DNA of 60,833 nucleotides from Planctomycetaceae bacterium (GTDB lineage: Bacteria > Planctomycetota > Planctomycetia > Planctomycetales > Planctomycetaceae). The notes under the pieces are model-generated. The model was not told the origin of the DNA and made no database searches. It saw only the letters and a program-made list of their open reading frames with translations. The position numbers and the translations under genes were made by a program. Of the stretch, positions 53,997 to 60,392 are shown one piece after another; the stretch's first letter is position 1, and each line of letters begins with the position of its first letter. The stretch spans positions 9,587 through 70,419 of the forward strand of contig PBOU01000129.1 in assembly GCA_002724415.1 (NCBI GenBank). The letters are read 5' to 3'.

Positions 53997-54737
53997 TTGA
54001 TGATGTCGGATGATTCGAATGTCGCCGGAGCGGTAGACAGCGGTGAGCCCCTGGACCTGCTTGTTGTGGCGGCACATCCCGATGACGCTGAGATCAGCGT
54101 GGGCGGGGTGATCCTGTCTTCGGTCGCCGCCGGGCGTCGTGTCGGCGTGCTCGAGTTGACCAACGGTGAACCCACTCCGAGGGGAACCGTTGAACGCCGT
54201 GCCGCTGAAACCGCTGCAGCAACCGAGGTGCTTGGTGTGACCTGGCGGGGGAACCTGGGACTGCCCAATCGCAGCCTGCAGGCTGACCTGCAGGCACGAC
54301 AACAGTTGGCCGAGGTGTTCCGGTTGACGCGTCCCGCGGTCATCCTGGCACCATACTGGGAGGACGCGCATCCGGATCATGTTGCTGCCAGTCAACTGGT
54401 CGACGACGCGCGTTTCTGGAGCAAGCTGAGCAAGACGGAAATGGTTGGCGAGCGATTCTGGCCTCCGCGTTTGTATTACTACTTCAGCATCCACCTGCGT
54501 ATTCATCCCCGGCCGTCGTTTGTCTTTGATATCAGTGACTGTATCGACGCCAAGATGAAGGCGGTCAGTTGTTACCAGAGCCAGGTGATTGAAGGGCGGA
54601 GCACGGAGTTTCCGACGGTGTTGGACGACATTCGTGATTGTGCACGCTACTGGGGCTGGTCGATTGGCCGACACTACGGGGAACCGTTGCTGAGTCGTGA
54701 GGAAATCGGTGTGTCGGCGCTCGAGGTGATCTGCTGA
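53997..54737 (+). CDS. PIG-L family deacetylase (BshB1-like)
   Basis: [79 protein letters not shown]. Confidence 0.92.
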
Positions 54738-55030
54738 TGCCGGACGGGACACTCGACGGGGTGATCGTGGAGTTCTTCGGGATTGCCCGTCAGCGGGCGG
54801 GGCGGACCCAGATCGTCGTTTGTCGGGGCCAGGAGGTGGTCCGACTGGGTGACGTGTTTCTGGCTGTCGGGTTGGAGTTGCCGGGTCTGGCCGAGGAGTG
54901 CCTGGACGGTCCTCGACCCCGGGAGGGATACCTGGCCAACATCAACGCCTGCCGCTTCACGACCGATCCGGACGTTCCGGTACAGGCCGGTGACCAGGTC
55001 TTGTTGCTGGCTGCCGACGCGGGTGGATGA
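54737..55030 (+). CDS. MoaD/ThiS family ubiquitin-like protein
   Basis: IVEFFGIARQRAGR..., YLANINACRFTTDPDVPVQAGDQVLLLAADAGG: beta-grasp pattern with C-terminal GG; TGATG overlap with upstream gene. Confidence 0.82.
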   Translation: MPDGTLDGVIVEFFGIARQRAGRTQIVVCRGQEVVRLGDVFLAVGLELPGLAEECLDGPRPREGYLANINACRFTTDPDVPVQAGDQVLLLAADAGG

Positions 55031-56889
55031 GCGGCGTTGTTGCAATTCGTCGCCCGGCGGTCTGCAATTGGGCTATGGAATCAGTTCCCGGTTACCACGG
55101 TGGATATCTGCGCGTCGATCTGACCGATCGCACGAGCCGTCGGATCGAGTGGCCAGAGGGCGTGCTGCGACGGTTCATCGGTGGAGCGGGGCTGGGTGCC
55201 TGGGTGCTGGGGCACGAAACCTCCGGCGTGATTGATCCACTGGCGGCTGAATCGCCCCTGGTGTTTGTCTTCAGCCCACTGGTCGGAAGTCCACTGACCA
55301 CCTCGGCCAAGTTCGCCGTTCTCGCCAAAAGTCCTCTGACGGGACGGATCAACGATTCTCTCTCGTCGTCGCACTTTGCCATCGCCGGTAAGAGAAGCGG
55401 TCACGATGCCATAGTGATTGTCGGGAAGGCCCGTCAGCCCACGACGCTGGTGGTCACTCCCGAGGGTGTGCGTTTCGAATCCGCCGAGTCGGAGTGGGGC
55501 CTGGGCAGTCGCGAGGCCAGTCAACGGGTGCGGCGGCGTCTTGGAGACGACGGTTTCCAGGTGGCGGCGATCGGGCCGGCCGGTGAGCGGCTGGTCCATT
55601 ACGCGACGATTTCACACGATGCCCGTCACGCCGGTCGGGGTGGACTGGGAGCGGTCATGGGGGCCAAGCAACTCAAGGCGGTCGCTGTCGCCGGTGACCG
55701 CCGGGTCCAGTACGCCGACGGGGAACGCCTGCTGGAGATCTCCAAGGATCTGTCTCAACGCTCGCTCGGAGCCGCCACGGCCAAGTACCGTGAACTGGGC
55801 ACCGTCGACAACCTGTTGACGTTCAATCGACTCGGGTCGCTGCCGACCCGGAACTTCCAGGCTGGCGTGTTCGACGGGGCTTCCCGGCTGGCTCCCGAGT
55901 CGCTCGAGGCCGACCGCAACCGAACTCGCGCCAGTTGTGCCGCGTGCACGATCGGTTGCGAACACATTTTTCCGCTCGCCGGGACCGAAGACAGTTCGAG
56001 TGGACAGGGCGTGCGGATGGAGTACGAGAATCTTTTCGCGCTCGGCCCGCTGTGCGGGGTTTCCGATCCGCAGGTTGTGCTGGCGGCCTCACACCTCTGC
56101 GACGAGTTGGGAATCGACACGATCAGCACCGGCGCGAGCATCGCGTTTGCCATGGAATGCGCCGAACGGGGGCTGGTTGACATTCCCGGTTTGCGGTTTG
56201 GAGAGGGCGAGGCGTTGTTGGCCATGATCGCCGATATCGGCCACCGTCGTGGTTGGGGTGACATGCTGGCCGATGGGACACGGGCGGCTGCCGAACGGAT
56301 TGGCGGTGGGTCGCACGAGTTCGCACCTCACGTGAAGGGGCTCGAGATTCCCGGTTACGAACCCCGCGCGCTGCAGGCGATGGCACTGGGATTTGCCGTG
56401 GGCACCCGTGGAGCCGACCACAATCGGTCGGGTGCCTACGAGGTGGACTTTTCGCCGGACGTTGAGCGGATCGACGCGGGACCCGAGACGATCGAGCCGG
56501 TCGTGAGGGTCGAGGACGAGGCGGTACTGATGGATTCCTTGATCCTGTGCAAGTTTCTCCGTGGCGTGTTTTCCGACCGGTTGGCCGGGATGGCCGAACT
56601 GCTGAAACCGGTGACCGGTTGGGATATCACGATCGAGGAACTCCTGGAAATTGCCAATCGAATCGTGACGACCAAGAAGGTGTACAACATCAGCCAGGGC
56701 TGGACTCCCAGCGAGGACACCCTGCCACTGCGATTCTTCGAGGAATCTCTGGCTGACGGGGGAAGCGCCGGTGCCCGGATTGACTCGATCCAATTGGCGG
56801 CCCAGGTCGAGGCCTACAACCTGCTGCGCGGTTGGACGGCCGAGGGTTTTGTTTCCGGGACGCGGCGAGCTGCACTGGGATTGGACTGA
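55027..56889 (+). CDS. Aldehyde:ferredoxin oxidoreductase (tungsten-pterin family)
   Basis: YHGGYLRVDLTDRTSRRIEWPEGVLRRFIGGAGLGAWVLGHE, FSPLVGSPLTTSAKFAVLAKSPLTGRIND, CAACTIGCEHIF (CxxCxxxC), distal LILCKF Cys. Confidence 0.95.
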   Translation: MSGVVAIRRPAVCNWAMESVPGYHGGYLRVDLTDRTSRRIEWPEGVLRRFIGGAGLGAWVLGHETSGVIDPLAAESPLVFVFSPLVGSPLTTSAKFAVLAKSPLTGRINDSLSSSHFAIAGKRSGHDAIVIVGKARQPTTLVVTPEGVRFESAESEWGLGSREASQRVRRRLGDDGFQVAAIGPAGERLVHYATISHDARHAGRGGLGAVMGAKQLKAVAVAGDRRVQYADGERLLEISKDLSQRSLGAATAKYRELGTVDNLLTFNRLGSLPTRNFQAGVFDGASRLAPESLEADRNRTRASCAACTIGCEHIFPLAGTEDSSSGQGVRMEYENLFALGPLCGVSDPQVVLAASHLCDELGIDTISTGASIAFAMECAERGLVDIPGLRFGEGEALLAMIADIGHRRGWGDMLADGTRAAAERIGGGSHEFAPHVKGLEIPGYEPRALQAMALGFAVGTRGADHNRSGAYEVDFSPDVERIDAGPETIEPVVRVEDEAVLMDSLILCKFLRGVFSDRLAGMAELLKPVTGWDITIEELLEIANRIVTTKKVYNISQGWTPSEDTLPLRFFEESLADGGSAGARIDSIQLAAQVEAYNLLRGWTAEGFVSGTRRAALGLD

Positions 56890-56974: not shown

Positions 56975-57322
56975 ATGCCCGAAGCCTTCATCCTGATTCC
57001 CGGTCGCACCAGTCGCCAGGGTACAACCCTCAACGAGGGCAAGTACACCGACGGATACATTGAGGAGATCAGCACGTTGCAGGTCGCTCCCGAGGACATG
57101 CAACGCCTGCAACTGGTCGATGGGGATCTCGTGCGGGTTTACAATGACGTCGGTGAATTCACGGTGCCGTGCAAGTCGGCCCGTGGCGACGAATTGCCGC
57201 CGGGGATGTTGTTTATCAGTTACGGAGACAAATCGAGTCGTTTGATGGGCGGGGACACCCAGGGCTGTGGAATGCCCGACAGCAAGGGGCTGGACGTGTT
57301 CCTGGAAACGACCCCGGGTTAG
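56975..57322 (+). CDS. fwdD: Formylmethanofuran dehydrogenase subunit D-like (molybdopterin dinucleotide-binding)
   Basis: FILIPGRTSRQGTTLNEGKYTDGYIEEISTLQVAPEDMQRLQLVDGDLVRVYNDVGEFTVPCKSARGDELPPGMLFISYGDKSSRLM. Confidence 0.88.
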   Translation: MPEAFILIPGRTSRQGTTLNEGKYTDGYIEEISTLQVAPEDMQRLQLVDGDLVRVYNDVGEFTVPCKSARGDELPPGMLFISYGDKSSRLMGGDTQGCGMPDSKGLDVFLETTPG

Positions 57323-57354
57323 CCAGCGACGACCTCGAAGAAACCGACACGCCA

Positions 57355-58731
57355 ATGAGCACGATCGAATCATCGACTGCCACGCAGGAACCGACGCCCG
57401 AGTTGCGGGTGGTCGAGGATGCGACCTGTACGTTTTGTGGGTGTGTCTGTGACGACATGGAGTTGACCGTCGAGGGCAACCGGATCACGAAGGCGAAAAA
57501 CGCCTGCGTGCTCGGAAAGGCCTGGTTCTTCAATCATCACATTGAGGACCGGCCCGAGGCGTTGATCGATGGCCAGCCGGCCGGTTACGAGCAGGCGATG
57601 GACCGGGCCGCTGATATCCTGCTCTCGGCTCGCTTTCCGTTGACCTATGGTCTCAGTGACACCACGACCGAGGCGCAGCGGGTGGCCGTGGCGATCACCG
57701 ATTGGATCGGCGGGATTGTCGACACCACCACCAGCGTCTGTCACGGCCCCTCGGGAATTGCCTTCCAGGGAGTGGGCGAGGTGACCTGCTCGCTTGGCGA
57801 GGTGAAGAATCGTGCCGATTACCTGATTTTCTGGGGTGGGAATCCGGCCGAGAGCCATCCCCGTCATTTCACCAAGTACAGCCTGATGCCCAAGGGGGAA
57901 TTTGTTCCCAACGGCCGTAAGGATCGCACCGCGGTGCTGATCGACGTGCGCAAGACCAAGAGTGCCAAGGCGGCTGATCATTTCTTGCAGGTCAAGCCTC
58001 GTCGCGATTTTGAACTGGCGTGGGCATTGCGTGCCCTGGCCAACGGCCTGGAACTGGACGCCGCGACAATCGAAGAGACGACCGGGATTTCGCTCGACAC
58101 GCTCGAAGAAGTGATGGAGGGAATGAAACGAGCCAAGTTCGGTGTGATTCTCTTTGGCATGGGCCTGACGATGACCCGTGGCAAGCATTTCAACAGCGAA
58201 GCGGTTCTTGCTCTGGCGCGTGACATGAACAAGCACACCCGTTGGAACGCCAAGCCGATGCGAGGGCATGGCAACGTGACCGGGGCTGACAATGTCGTCA
58301 GTTGGTCGACGGGTTACCCGTTCGGGGTCCACCTGGGAGGTGGCTTCCCCCGGTTCAACCCGGGTGAATTCACCGCGTCGGATGTGCTGGCCCGGGGCGA
58401 GGCCGACGCCGCCCTGATTATTGCCAGCGATCCGATGTCGAATTTTTCTCAGCCCGCCCGCGATCACCTCCAGGGCATTCCCAGCGTGGTTCTCGACCCG
58501 AAGCTGTCCGACACCGCCCGCACCGCCGCGGTCGCCTTCACGACCTCGACCTACGGGATCAATACCTCCGGGACGGTGTACCGAATGGATGACGTGCCCA
58601 TCCCGCTGCGACCCGCATTCGAATCGCCTTACAAGAGCGATCTCGAGATCTTGAGGGGCATCGAGTCCCGCATCCGGCAACGCCAGCTTGCCGGGGCCGT
58701 CGCTGGCCAGTCAACGGGTGGGACAGCATGA
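57355..58731 (+). CDS. fwdB: Formylmethanofuran dehydrogenase subunit B
   Basis: DATCTFCGCVCDDMELTVEGNRITKAKNACVLGKAWF, TTSVCHGPSGIAFQGVGEVTCSLGEVKNRADYLIFWGGNPAESHPRHF. Confidence 0.93.
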   Translation: MSTIESSTATQEPTPELRVVEDATCTFCGCVCDDMELTVEGNRITKAKNACVLGKAWFFNHHIEDRPEALIDGQPAGYEQAMDRAADILLSARFPLTYGLSDTTTEAQRVAVAITDWIGGIVDTTTSVCHGPSGIAFQGVGEVTCSLGEVKNRADYLIFWGGNPAESHPRHFTKYSLMPKGEFVPNGRKDRTAVLIDVRKTKSAKAADHFLQVKPRRDFELAWALRALANGLELDAATIEETTGISLDTLEEVMEGMKRAKFGVILFGMGLTMTRGKHFNSEAVLALARDMNKHTRWNAKPMRGHGNVTGADNVVSWSTGYPFGVHLGGGFPRFNPGEFTASDVLARGEADAALIIASDPMSNFSQPARDHLQGIPSVVLDPKLSDTARTAAVAFTTSTYGINTSGTVYRMDDVPIPLRPAFESPYKSDLEILRGIESRIRQRQLAGAVAGQSTGGTA

Positions 58732-60392
58732 GTTCGCTGCGGATCACGGGTGGGACGATCTACGATCCTGCCAACGGGATCGACGGTCAGGTTGGTGACA
58801 TCTGGATCGTTGATGGCAGGGTGGTGGAAACTCCAGCCGAGCCGGATGCCTCGGCCGATCGGACAATCGATGCGACCGGCCTGGTCGTGATGCCCGGCGG
58901 TATCGACATGCACTGCCATATTGCCGGACCGAAGGTCAACACCGCCCGGAAGATGATCCCCGACGACAAGCGGAAAGCCGATCCGGTCCACCGCACGCGA
59001 TTGACCCGGTCGGGCACCGGCGGCAGCGTTCCCAGCACGTTCGCGACGGGATACCTCTACGCCGGCCTGGGCTACACCACCGCCTTTGACGCCGCCGTTC
59101 CTCCCCTGGGAGCGCGGCATGCTCACGAGGAACTCGCTGACACCCCCGTCATTGACAAGGGGTTTTATGTCCTGATGGGCAACAACCACTACGTGATGAA
59201 GCAACTGGCCGACGGCGAGCCGGGGTTGCTGAAAGCCTACATCGCGTGGTTGCTCAATGCGACAAAGGGCTACACGGCCAAGCTGGTCAATCCCGGTGGA
59301 GTGGAGATCTGGAAGAGCGGCGGCGGGAACGCCACGGGAATCGACGACACGGTGGACCACTTTGCGGTGACACCCCGGCAGATCATCCAGGGTGTGGCCG
59401 GTGCGGTGCACGAACTCGGGTTGCCTCACCCGGTGCACATCCACTGCAACAACCTCGGGTTGCCGGGGAACCATGCCACCACGATGGAGACGATGAAGTC
59501 GCTGGAGGGGCACCGGGGACACCTGACTCATATCCAGTTCCACAGCTACGACGGCGATCCCGACGACCAGTCGACATTTGGTTCGCGGGTGGAGGAATTG
59601 GCCGAGTATGTCAATACGCACGACAACCTGACCGTCGACGTCGGCCAGGTGATGTTTGCCAACACCACCTCGATGACCGGTGATGGACCGCTGGGCTACT
59701 ACCTGCACCAGGTCACCGGTCGCAAGTGGTTCAGCGGCGATACCGAGATGGAGGCCGGCTGCGGGATCGTGCCGATTGTCTACAAGCAAAAGAGCCTCGT
59801 GCACGCCTTGCAATGGGCCATCGGGCTCGAGTGGTACCTGCTGGTCGATGATCCCTGGCGGATTGCCATGAGCACAGATCATCCCAATGGGGGTTCCTTC
59901 CAGGCGTATCCCGAGATCATCTCGCTGTTGATGGACCGTGAGCGGCGGCTGGAGGTGCTGGCTGGGGCACCGCCGGCGGTGGCTGACCGTTGCCTGCTGA
60001 AGGACCTTGATCGCGAATACACCCTGGGGGAGATCGCGATTATCACCCGCGCCGCGCCCGCTCGTATGCTTGGCCTCTCTCACAAGGGCCATCTTGGGCC
60101 GGGAGCAGATGGTGATGTGACACTGTACAGCCCCGATGACGATATCCAGCGGATGTTCGAACTGCCTCGCTATGTGTTCAGCCGGGGTGAACTGATCGTT
60201 GACGATGCACAGATTCTTCAGGACTCGCGGGGCCGCACGTTGCACGTCGCGCCCGAATATGACCCTGACGCCGTGGACGACATCCAGGCGTGGTTCGAAA
60301 AAACCTATTCGATCCAGTTTCGCAACTACCCGGTCGACGACCACTATCTCGAGAATTCACTGGTCATACCGACCCGTTCTGATTCGTCGTGA
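58728..60392 (+). CDS. fwdA: Formylmethanofuran dehydrogenase subunit A (amidohydrolase)
   Basis: LRITGGTIYDPANGIDGQVGDIWIVDGRVV, VVMPGGIDMHCHIAGPKVNTARKM, GTGGSVPSTFATGYLYAGLGYTTAFDAAVPPLGARHAHEE, HIHCNNLGLPGN; ATGA overlap with fwdB. Confidence 0.95.
   Translation: MSSLRITGGTIYDPANGIDGQVGDIWIVDGRVVETPAEPDASADRTIDATGLVVMPGGIDMHCHIAGPKVNTARKMIPDDKRKADPVHRTRLTRSGTGGSVPSTFATGYLYAGLGYTTAFDAAVPPLGARHAHEELADTPVIDKGFYVLMGNNHYVMKQLADGEPGLLKAYIAWLLNATKGYTAKLVNPGGVEIWKSGGGNATGIDDTVDHFAVTPRQIIQGVAGAVHELGLPHPVHIHCNNLGLPGNHATTMETMKSLEGHRGHLTHIQFHSYDGDPDDQSTFGSRVEELAEYVNTHDNLTVDVGQVMFANTTSMTGDGPLGYYLHQVTGRKWFSGDTEMEAGCGIVPIVYKQKSLVHALQWAIGLEWYLLVDDPWRIAMSTDHPNGGSFQAYPEIISLLMDRERRLEVLAGAPPAVADRCLLKDLDREYTLGEIAIITRAAPARMLGLSHKGHLGPGADGDVTLYSPDDDIQRMFELPRYVFSRGELIVDDAQILQDSRGRTLHVAPEYDPDAVDDIQAWFEKTYSIQFRNYPVDDHYLENSLVIPTRSDSS

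Follow-up and report, generated by a model that had tools for sequence, protein, structure and literature searches.

A fwdD-fwdB-fwdA gene cluster in a member of the Planctomycetaceae raises the question of whether it encodes a redox-active formylmethanofuran dehydrogenase (Fwd) or a hydrolytic complex (Fhc) such as FhcABCD of Methylorubrum extorquens (PDB 6s6y), which has homologous A, B and C subunits and occupies the same position in the pathway. Annotation pipelines give redox Fwd and hydrolytic Fhc one and the same name. The cluster is located in a 60,833-nucleotide stretch of DNA (contig PBOU01000129.1, positions 9,587 to 70,419), which as a whole will be referred to as the window. Consistent with a preliminary description of this DNA, the three open reading frames are real and adjacent on the forward strand: fwdD (56975-57322) encodes a stand-alone molybdopterin-dinucleotide-binding subunit of 115 aa, fwdB (57355-58731) the predicted catalytic Mo/W-bis-MGD subunit of 458 aa, and fwdA (58728-60392) an amidohydrolase subunit of 554 aa predicted to convert formyl-methanofuran to formate, with fwdB and fwdA overlapping by ATGA at 58728-58731. 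FwdB scored 495.9 bits against TIGR03129 (cut-off 327.8) and matched PDB chain 5t5i_B at 8.4e-110; the respective values for FwdA were 744.5 bits against TIGR03121 (cut-off 392.75) and 1.7e-153 for chain 8rja_A. FwdD obtained 62 bits with the archaeal FwdD model NF042908, which is under the cut-off of that model. That it might be an unrelated MopB fragment was nevertheless excluded, because it passed PF01568 (44.6 bits, cut-off 26.8) and its top matches among solved structures are all FwdD chains (8rja_D at 3.4e-15, 2ki8_A, 9sfi_S and 5t5i_D). The fwdC gene is missing from the cluster and was found on another contig, C196 (TIGR03122 over cut-off).

To locate the ligand residues, FwdB was aligned with five archaeal PDB chains, four plasmid-borne proteobacterial FhcB sequences and planctomycete relatives. 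Residues C25, C28, C32 and C51 (CTFCGCVC...NAC; codons within 57427-57507, forward strand), C129 and H130 (codons at 57739-57744, forward strand) all match archaeal FwdB positions. Residue 129 is indeed a cysteine, encoded by TGT at 57739-57741, and aligns with the tungsten ligand Cys118 of 5t5i_B; the pair Cys129-His130 matches all five archaeal chains, and the residue printed as X in the same column of 9sfi is consistent with Sec. The arginine of the PMRGH motif (R303, codon at 58261-58263 on the forward strand, in PMRGHGNVTG with the archaeal counterpart PMRGHYNVTG) is kept in ligand-bearing FwdB proteins, whereas the motif is altered in the ligand-poor homologues. Most homologues of the FhcB type show Ser, Gly, Leu or a gap at the ligand position, and the proteobacterial FhcB proteins have Ser, Ala or a similar residue there and have lost the PMRGH motif altogether. 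An FhcB without a metal ligand is a trait of Fhc, but in the planctomycete protein the ligand cysteine is present.

The preliminary description had also relied on the four cysteines of the [4Fe-4S] pattern to tell Fwd from Fhc. This argument does not hold, as the FhcB proteins of Azospirillum, Thiodictyon and Paraburkholderia retain them equally, as do ligandless planctomycete homologues, and none of the four varies across 64 aligned planctomycete proteins of the ligand-bearing and ligand-poor types. Since hydrolase-type FhcB keeps them, they are not diagnostic and were rejected as evidence for redox function. In Methylorubrum, the FhcB chain of 6s6y comprises 361 aa and its match begins past the Fe-S segment. 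Judged from the aligned sequences, Fwd and Fhc are separated by Cys129, His130, the PMRGH arginine and the FwdD subunit.

The predicted structure of FwdB points in the same direction. An AlphaFold2 model calculated with 64 related sequences as input reached a pLDDT of 88.8 (an earlier model from 5 sequences with a pLDDT of 42 was discarded) and superimposed on 5t5i_B with TM scores of 0.88/0.94 and 1.9 Å. Searching the PDB with Foldseek yielded 8rja_B, 5t5i and 7bkb_H at the top ranks (query TM 0.87-0.88, rmsd 1.7-1.9 Å, 37-42% identity), whereas the Methylorubrum FhcB chains (6s6y) ranked lower with TM scores of 0.65-0.66 and 22% identity. The modelled fold is thus far closer to archaeal FwdB than to Methylorubrum FhcB. 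The tungsten Fwd of Methanothermobacter wolfeii (FwdABCDFG; PDB 5t5i, 5t5m, 5t61), whose FwdB is 41% identical over the modelled fold, shares with the planctomycete proteins the subunits FwdA, FwdB and FwdD, the Cys/His/Arg ligand motif, the [4Fe-4S] cysteines and the dinuclear site. It differs from the planctomycete system in that the latter is found in a bacterial host, has an unlinked fwdC and no FwdF or FwdG gene beside fwdB, and lies adjacent to genes for an aldehyde ferredoxin oxidoreductase (AOR) and a MoaD-like protein.

A second line of evidence comes from the distribution of FwdD. A profile search was performed over 20 planctomycete genomes, six with a ligand-bearing FwdB and 14 with ligand-poor homologues only; a further genome, G079, was omitted from the count as its FwdB is cut by the contig end. 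Stand-alone FwdD was detected in all six ligand-bearing genomes (G000, which is the source genome, G130, G117, G148, G087 and G061; E < 1e-49) but in none of the 14 others, in which weak matches to the FwdD profile lay inside large unrelated molybdopterin proteins or were near threshold. Were the genomes independent, such a distribution would arise by chance once in 38,760 cases; in fact they are not independent. In the four proteobacterial fhc loci, which show the gene order B-A-D-C and lack the ligand cysteine, FwdD was likewise not found, whereas fwdD adjoins fwdB in the window. Two genomes deserve separate mention. G152 encodes an FhcB-type protein (L015) in which SLCHAPS keeps Cys and His, with MRLPGDV as Arg motif and no FwdD, and is possibly an intermediate between the Fwd and FhcB types. 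In G087, a ligand-bearing FwdB coexists with a ligandless homologue (L045, L049), and these two proteins may serve different roles. Considering the ligand residues, the model and this co-segregation, we regard it as likely that fwdDBA encodes the catalytic core of a genuine archaeal-type Mo/W formylmethanofuran dehydrogenase rather than a hydrolytic Fhc, and that this enzyme terminates formaldehyde oxidation via H4MPT and methanofuran.

A gene encoding a tungsten-type AOR (55027-56889, forward strand; PF01314 and PF02730; the start of the reading frame at 55027 is possibly too far upstream) ends 85 bases before fwdD on the same strand and is preceded by a gene for a small MoaD/ThiS-like protein with a Gly-Gly end (54737-55030, forward strand). 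The latter protein has no Pfam match itself, and its homologue in L104 shows a weak ThiS match (0.0023) and a C-terminal DAGG. Directly 5′ of the MoaD-like gene and overlapping it lies bshB1 for a bacillithiol deacetylase (53997-54737, forward strand), an adjacency shared by no loci other than the four closest. Among 37 loci with full flanks, fwdD was found in 34, AOR in 15, MobA in 10 and MoeA in 8, with at least one of AOR, MobA and MoeA near fwdB in 18; among the best 80 loci, the MoaD-like gene is linked to AOR and fwd in 18. MobA provides bis-MGD with its guanine nucleotide, and insertion of the metal is carried out by MoeA, so that their linkage fits a metal-carrying FwdB. AOR occurs near fwdB in three arrangements (upstream on either strand, or downstream on the opposite strand), and therefore its link to fwd was not simply inherited as a single gene order. 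The source genome has three AOR genes in 6.26 Mb, so that fewer than 1% of randomly chosen 16-kb stretches would contain one; the two AOR-family genes other than that of the window are located on contigs C221 and C50. AOR upstream of fwdD is likely a functional neighbour.

This linkage might even indicate that fwdDBA makes up half of a broader tungsten module, which together with AOR acts on aldehydes and not specifically in the H4MPT pathway. The directly upstream position of the AOR and MoaD-like genes and their association with fwd in several arrangements would agree with such a role. We nevertheless consider it unlikely, as AOR is also encoded in genomes with only ligandless FhcB-type proteins and absent from two genomes with a Sec-containing FwdB, and the source genome contains a complete H4MPT gene set. 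The idea that AOR strictly accompanies redox Fwd was rejected, as three ligandless genomes possess it and the two Sec-FwdB genomes do not.

A hydrolase-only complex like Fhc, in which FwdA frees formate, FwdB is a mere scaffold and a separate formate dehydrogenase produces CO2, has to be weighed against a dehydrogenase as well. The FwdA residues H62, H64, K185, H237/H239 and D384 align with H57, H59, K178, H229/H231 and D385 of 5t5i_A, demonstrating an intact dinuclear metal site; since FhcA keeps the same residues, they point to hydrolysis and not to redox chemistry. In addition, the genome contains the gene for a complete formate dehydrogenase of 945 residues (TIGR01591, 748 bits) that is equipped with a Cys-His ligand of its own. 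This enzyme offers another way of turning formate into CO2, so that it might act after hydrolysis. Close relatives keep ligandless FhcB-type proteins, and the cluster itself holds no gene for an electron carrier: neither a ferredoxin motif nor a conserved ferredoxin neighbour was found around fwdB, be it in the window or in the 80 related loci. On the other hand, all relatives of the ligand-bearing type preserve the ligand residues as well as FwdD, and in the other type the two are lost or changed jointly; molybdopterin-cofactor genes are linked, and a scaffold would not be expected to retain Cys or Sec at one particular position. A complex restricted to hydrolysis is accordingly judged quite improbable.

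Elsewhere, the source genome encodes fwdC (C196, adjoined by bc1-type complex genes), ftr (C9), mch (C10), RFAP synthase (C178), fae directly next to an mtd-type gene (C24), and MobA together with MoeA (C130), whereas CdhC, the beta subunit of acetyl-CoA synthase, was not found in this 94%-complete genome. The presence of fae, mtd, mch, ftr and fwdC and the lack of CdhC make formaldehyde oxidation, that is formyl-methanofuran to CO2, the likely direction. A mainly reductive role, fixing CO2 to formyl-methanofuran as archaeal homologues do in a reversible reaction, appears very unlikely given the missing CdhC, the position of fae beside the mtd-type gene and the bc1-type genes next to fwdC, which suggest respiration.

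An oxidative dehydrogenase would operate as follows. Fae, Mtd, Mch and Ftr would produce formyl-methanofuran, which FwdA, in a core of FwdD, FwdB and FwdA joined by FwdC from the other contig, would hydrolyse to formate. Oxidation of this formate to CO2 would then fall to FwdB and FwdD, at a bis-MGD centre with W or Mo that is bound by Cys129, and the electrons would leave through the [4Fe-4S] cluster to an acceptor. The bound cofactor, the choice of tungsten over molybdenum, the channelling of formate, the direction and the acceptor are elements of this scheme that we infer. The interpretation given in the preliminary description is upheld in part: redox competence has good support from ligand residues, model, FwdD co-occurrence and cofactor-gene neighbours, and the complex is probably able to oxidise the formyl group fully to CO2, whereas the Fe-S argument, the implied novelty and, in view of the formate dehydrogenase, the exclusion of hydrolysis to formate could not be sustained.

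Regarding novelty, redox-type bacterial FwdB has already been published. The planctomycete P2 (Rhodopirellula) has an fmdD-fmdB-fmdA-fmdC operon with a Sec-containing FmdB and possesses both Sec and Cys forms (PMC4807772, 2016). It resembles the present locus in its planctomycete host, the gene order D-B-A and the redox-type FmdB, and differs in that here only the Cys form is found and fwdC is located elsewhere. Actinobacteria from Hakuba carry fwdDBA-ftr-fwdC with an FwdB containing Cys118 and an Fe-S domain (PMC7325909, 2020); they share a bacterial FwdB, the Cys118 equivalent and the [4Fe-4S] motif, and FwdFG are lacking there while no FwdF or FwdG gene lies beside fwdB here, but their host is an anaerobe with the Wood-Ljungdahl pathway said to lack methanopterin synthesis genes (PMC7325909), whereas the H4MPT pathway is present here. 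A later study put the number of bacterial FwdB at 149 and made a case for their transfer from Archaea (PMC10100899, 2023). The planctomycete fwdDBA is therefore a good example of a bacterial enzyme type already reported; what seems to be new is the co-segregation of FwdD with the ligand and the linkage to cofactor genes.

A contig scan detected 351 relatives, and the best 80 among them were retrieved (68-92% identity, nearly all labelled Planctomycetota); the scan pattern was placed in the Fe-S segment and not at the ligand, and the ranking still favoured likeness to ligand-bearing proteins. In 79 of these 80, [C/U]HGP was seen directly, and in L073 too when read in the true frame. FwdD is encoded in 61 of the best 80 loci. 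Absence of fwdD from Planctomycetes, as stated earlier (PMC5020050, 2016), is contradicted by these loci and by the window, and fwdD is in fact widespread in the phylum. FwdB exceeded the cut-off in 12 of 246 genomes of the phylum, two of which (L013 and L014) have an in-frame TGA, read as Sec, at the ligand position. The same holds for L047; fwdD, fwdA and fwdC lie alongside fwdB in all three loci, plus ftr in L047. Ligand-bearing Fwd is common in Planctomycetota, and the family of the source organism is mixed, several of its complete genomes carrying only ligandless homologues. Planctomycete-type fwdB was also observed in L112, titled Euryarchaeota archaeon SP207, and in L118, titled Candidatus Kuenenia stuttgartiensis TH-11nov19-78 and nearly identical to L099 (Planctomyces sp. 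F1-80); both are probably mis-binned or mislabelled contigs.

In an archaea-rooted tree, which gave long-branch warnings, the ligand-bearing planctomycete FwdB proteins formed a single branch (96/91) and the ligand-poor planctomycete proteins joined proteobacterial FhcB (100/100). After removal of the longest rows, the ligand-poor planctomycete group was still supported by 100/100, but the ligand-bearing proteins were no longer one supported branch. Since this support was lost once the long FhcB rows were removed, the order of events is uncertain; the trees fit, without proving, a single event in which a bacterial Fwd lost its redox function. We tentatively suggest that Planctomycetota may span both ends and the middle of a transition from Fwd to Fhc, leading from a bacterial redox Fwd with FwdD and tungsten-cofactor neighbours to FhcB-type scaffolds as FwdD and the metal ligand were lost, G152 representing an intermediate, and that AOR, MoaD and Fwd might constitute a dedicated tungsten module in aerobic C1 oxidation.

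The strict co-segregation of FwdD and the ligand provides a cheap genomic marker for distinguishing redox Fwd from hydrolytic Fhc. If the enzyme is active, these planctomycetes would terminate formaldehyde oxidation with an archaeal-type metal enzyme instead of Fhc plus formate dehydrogenase, which would change both the metal they require and the electron carrier that is reduced.
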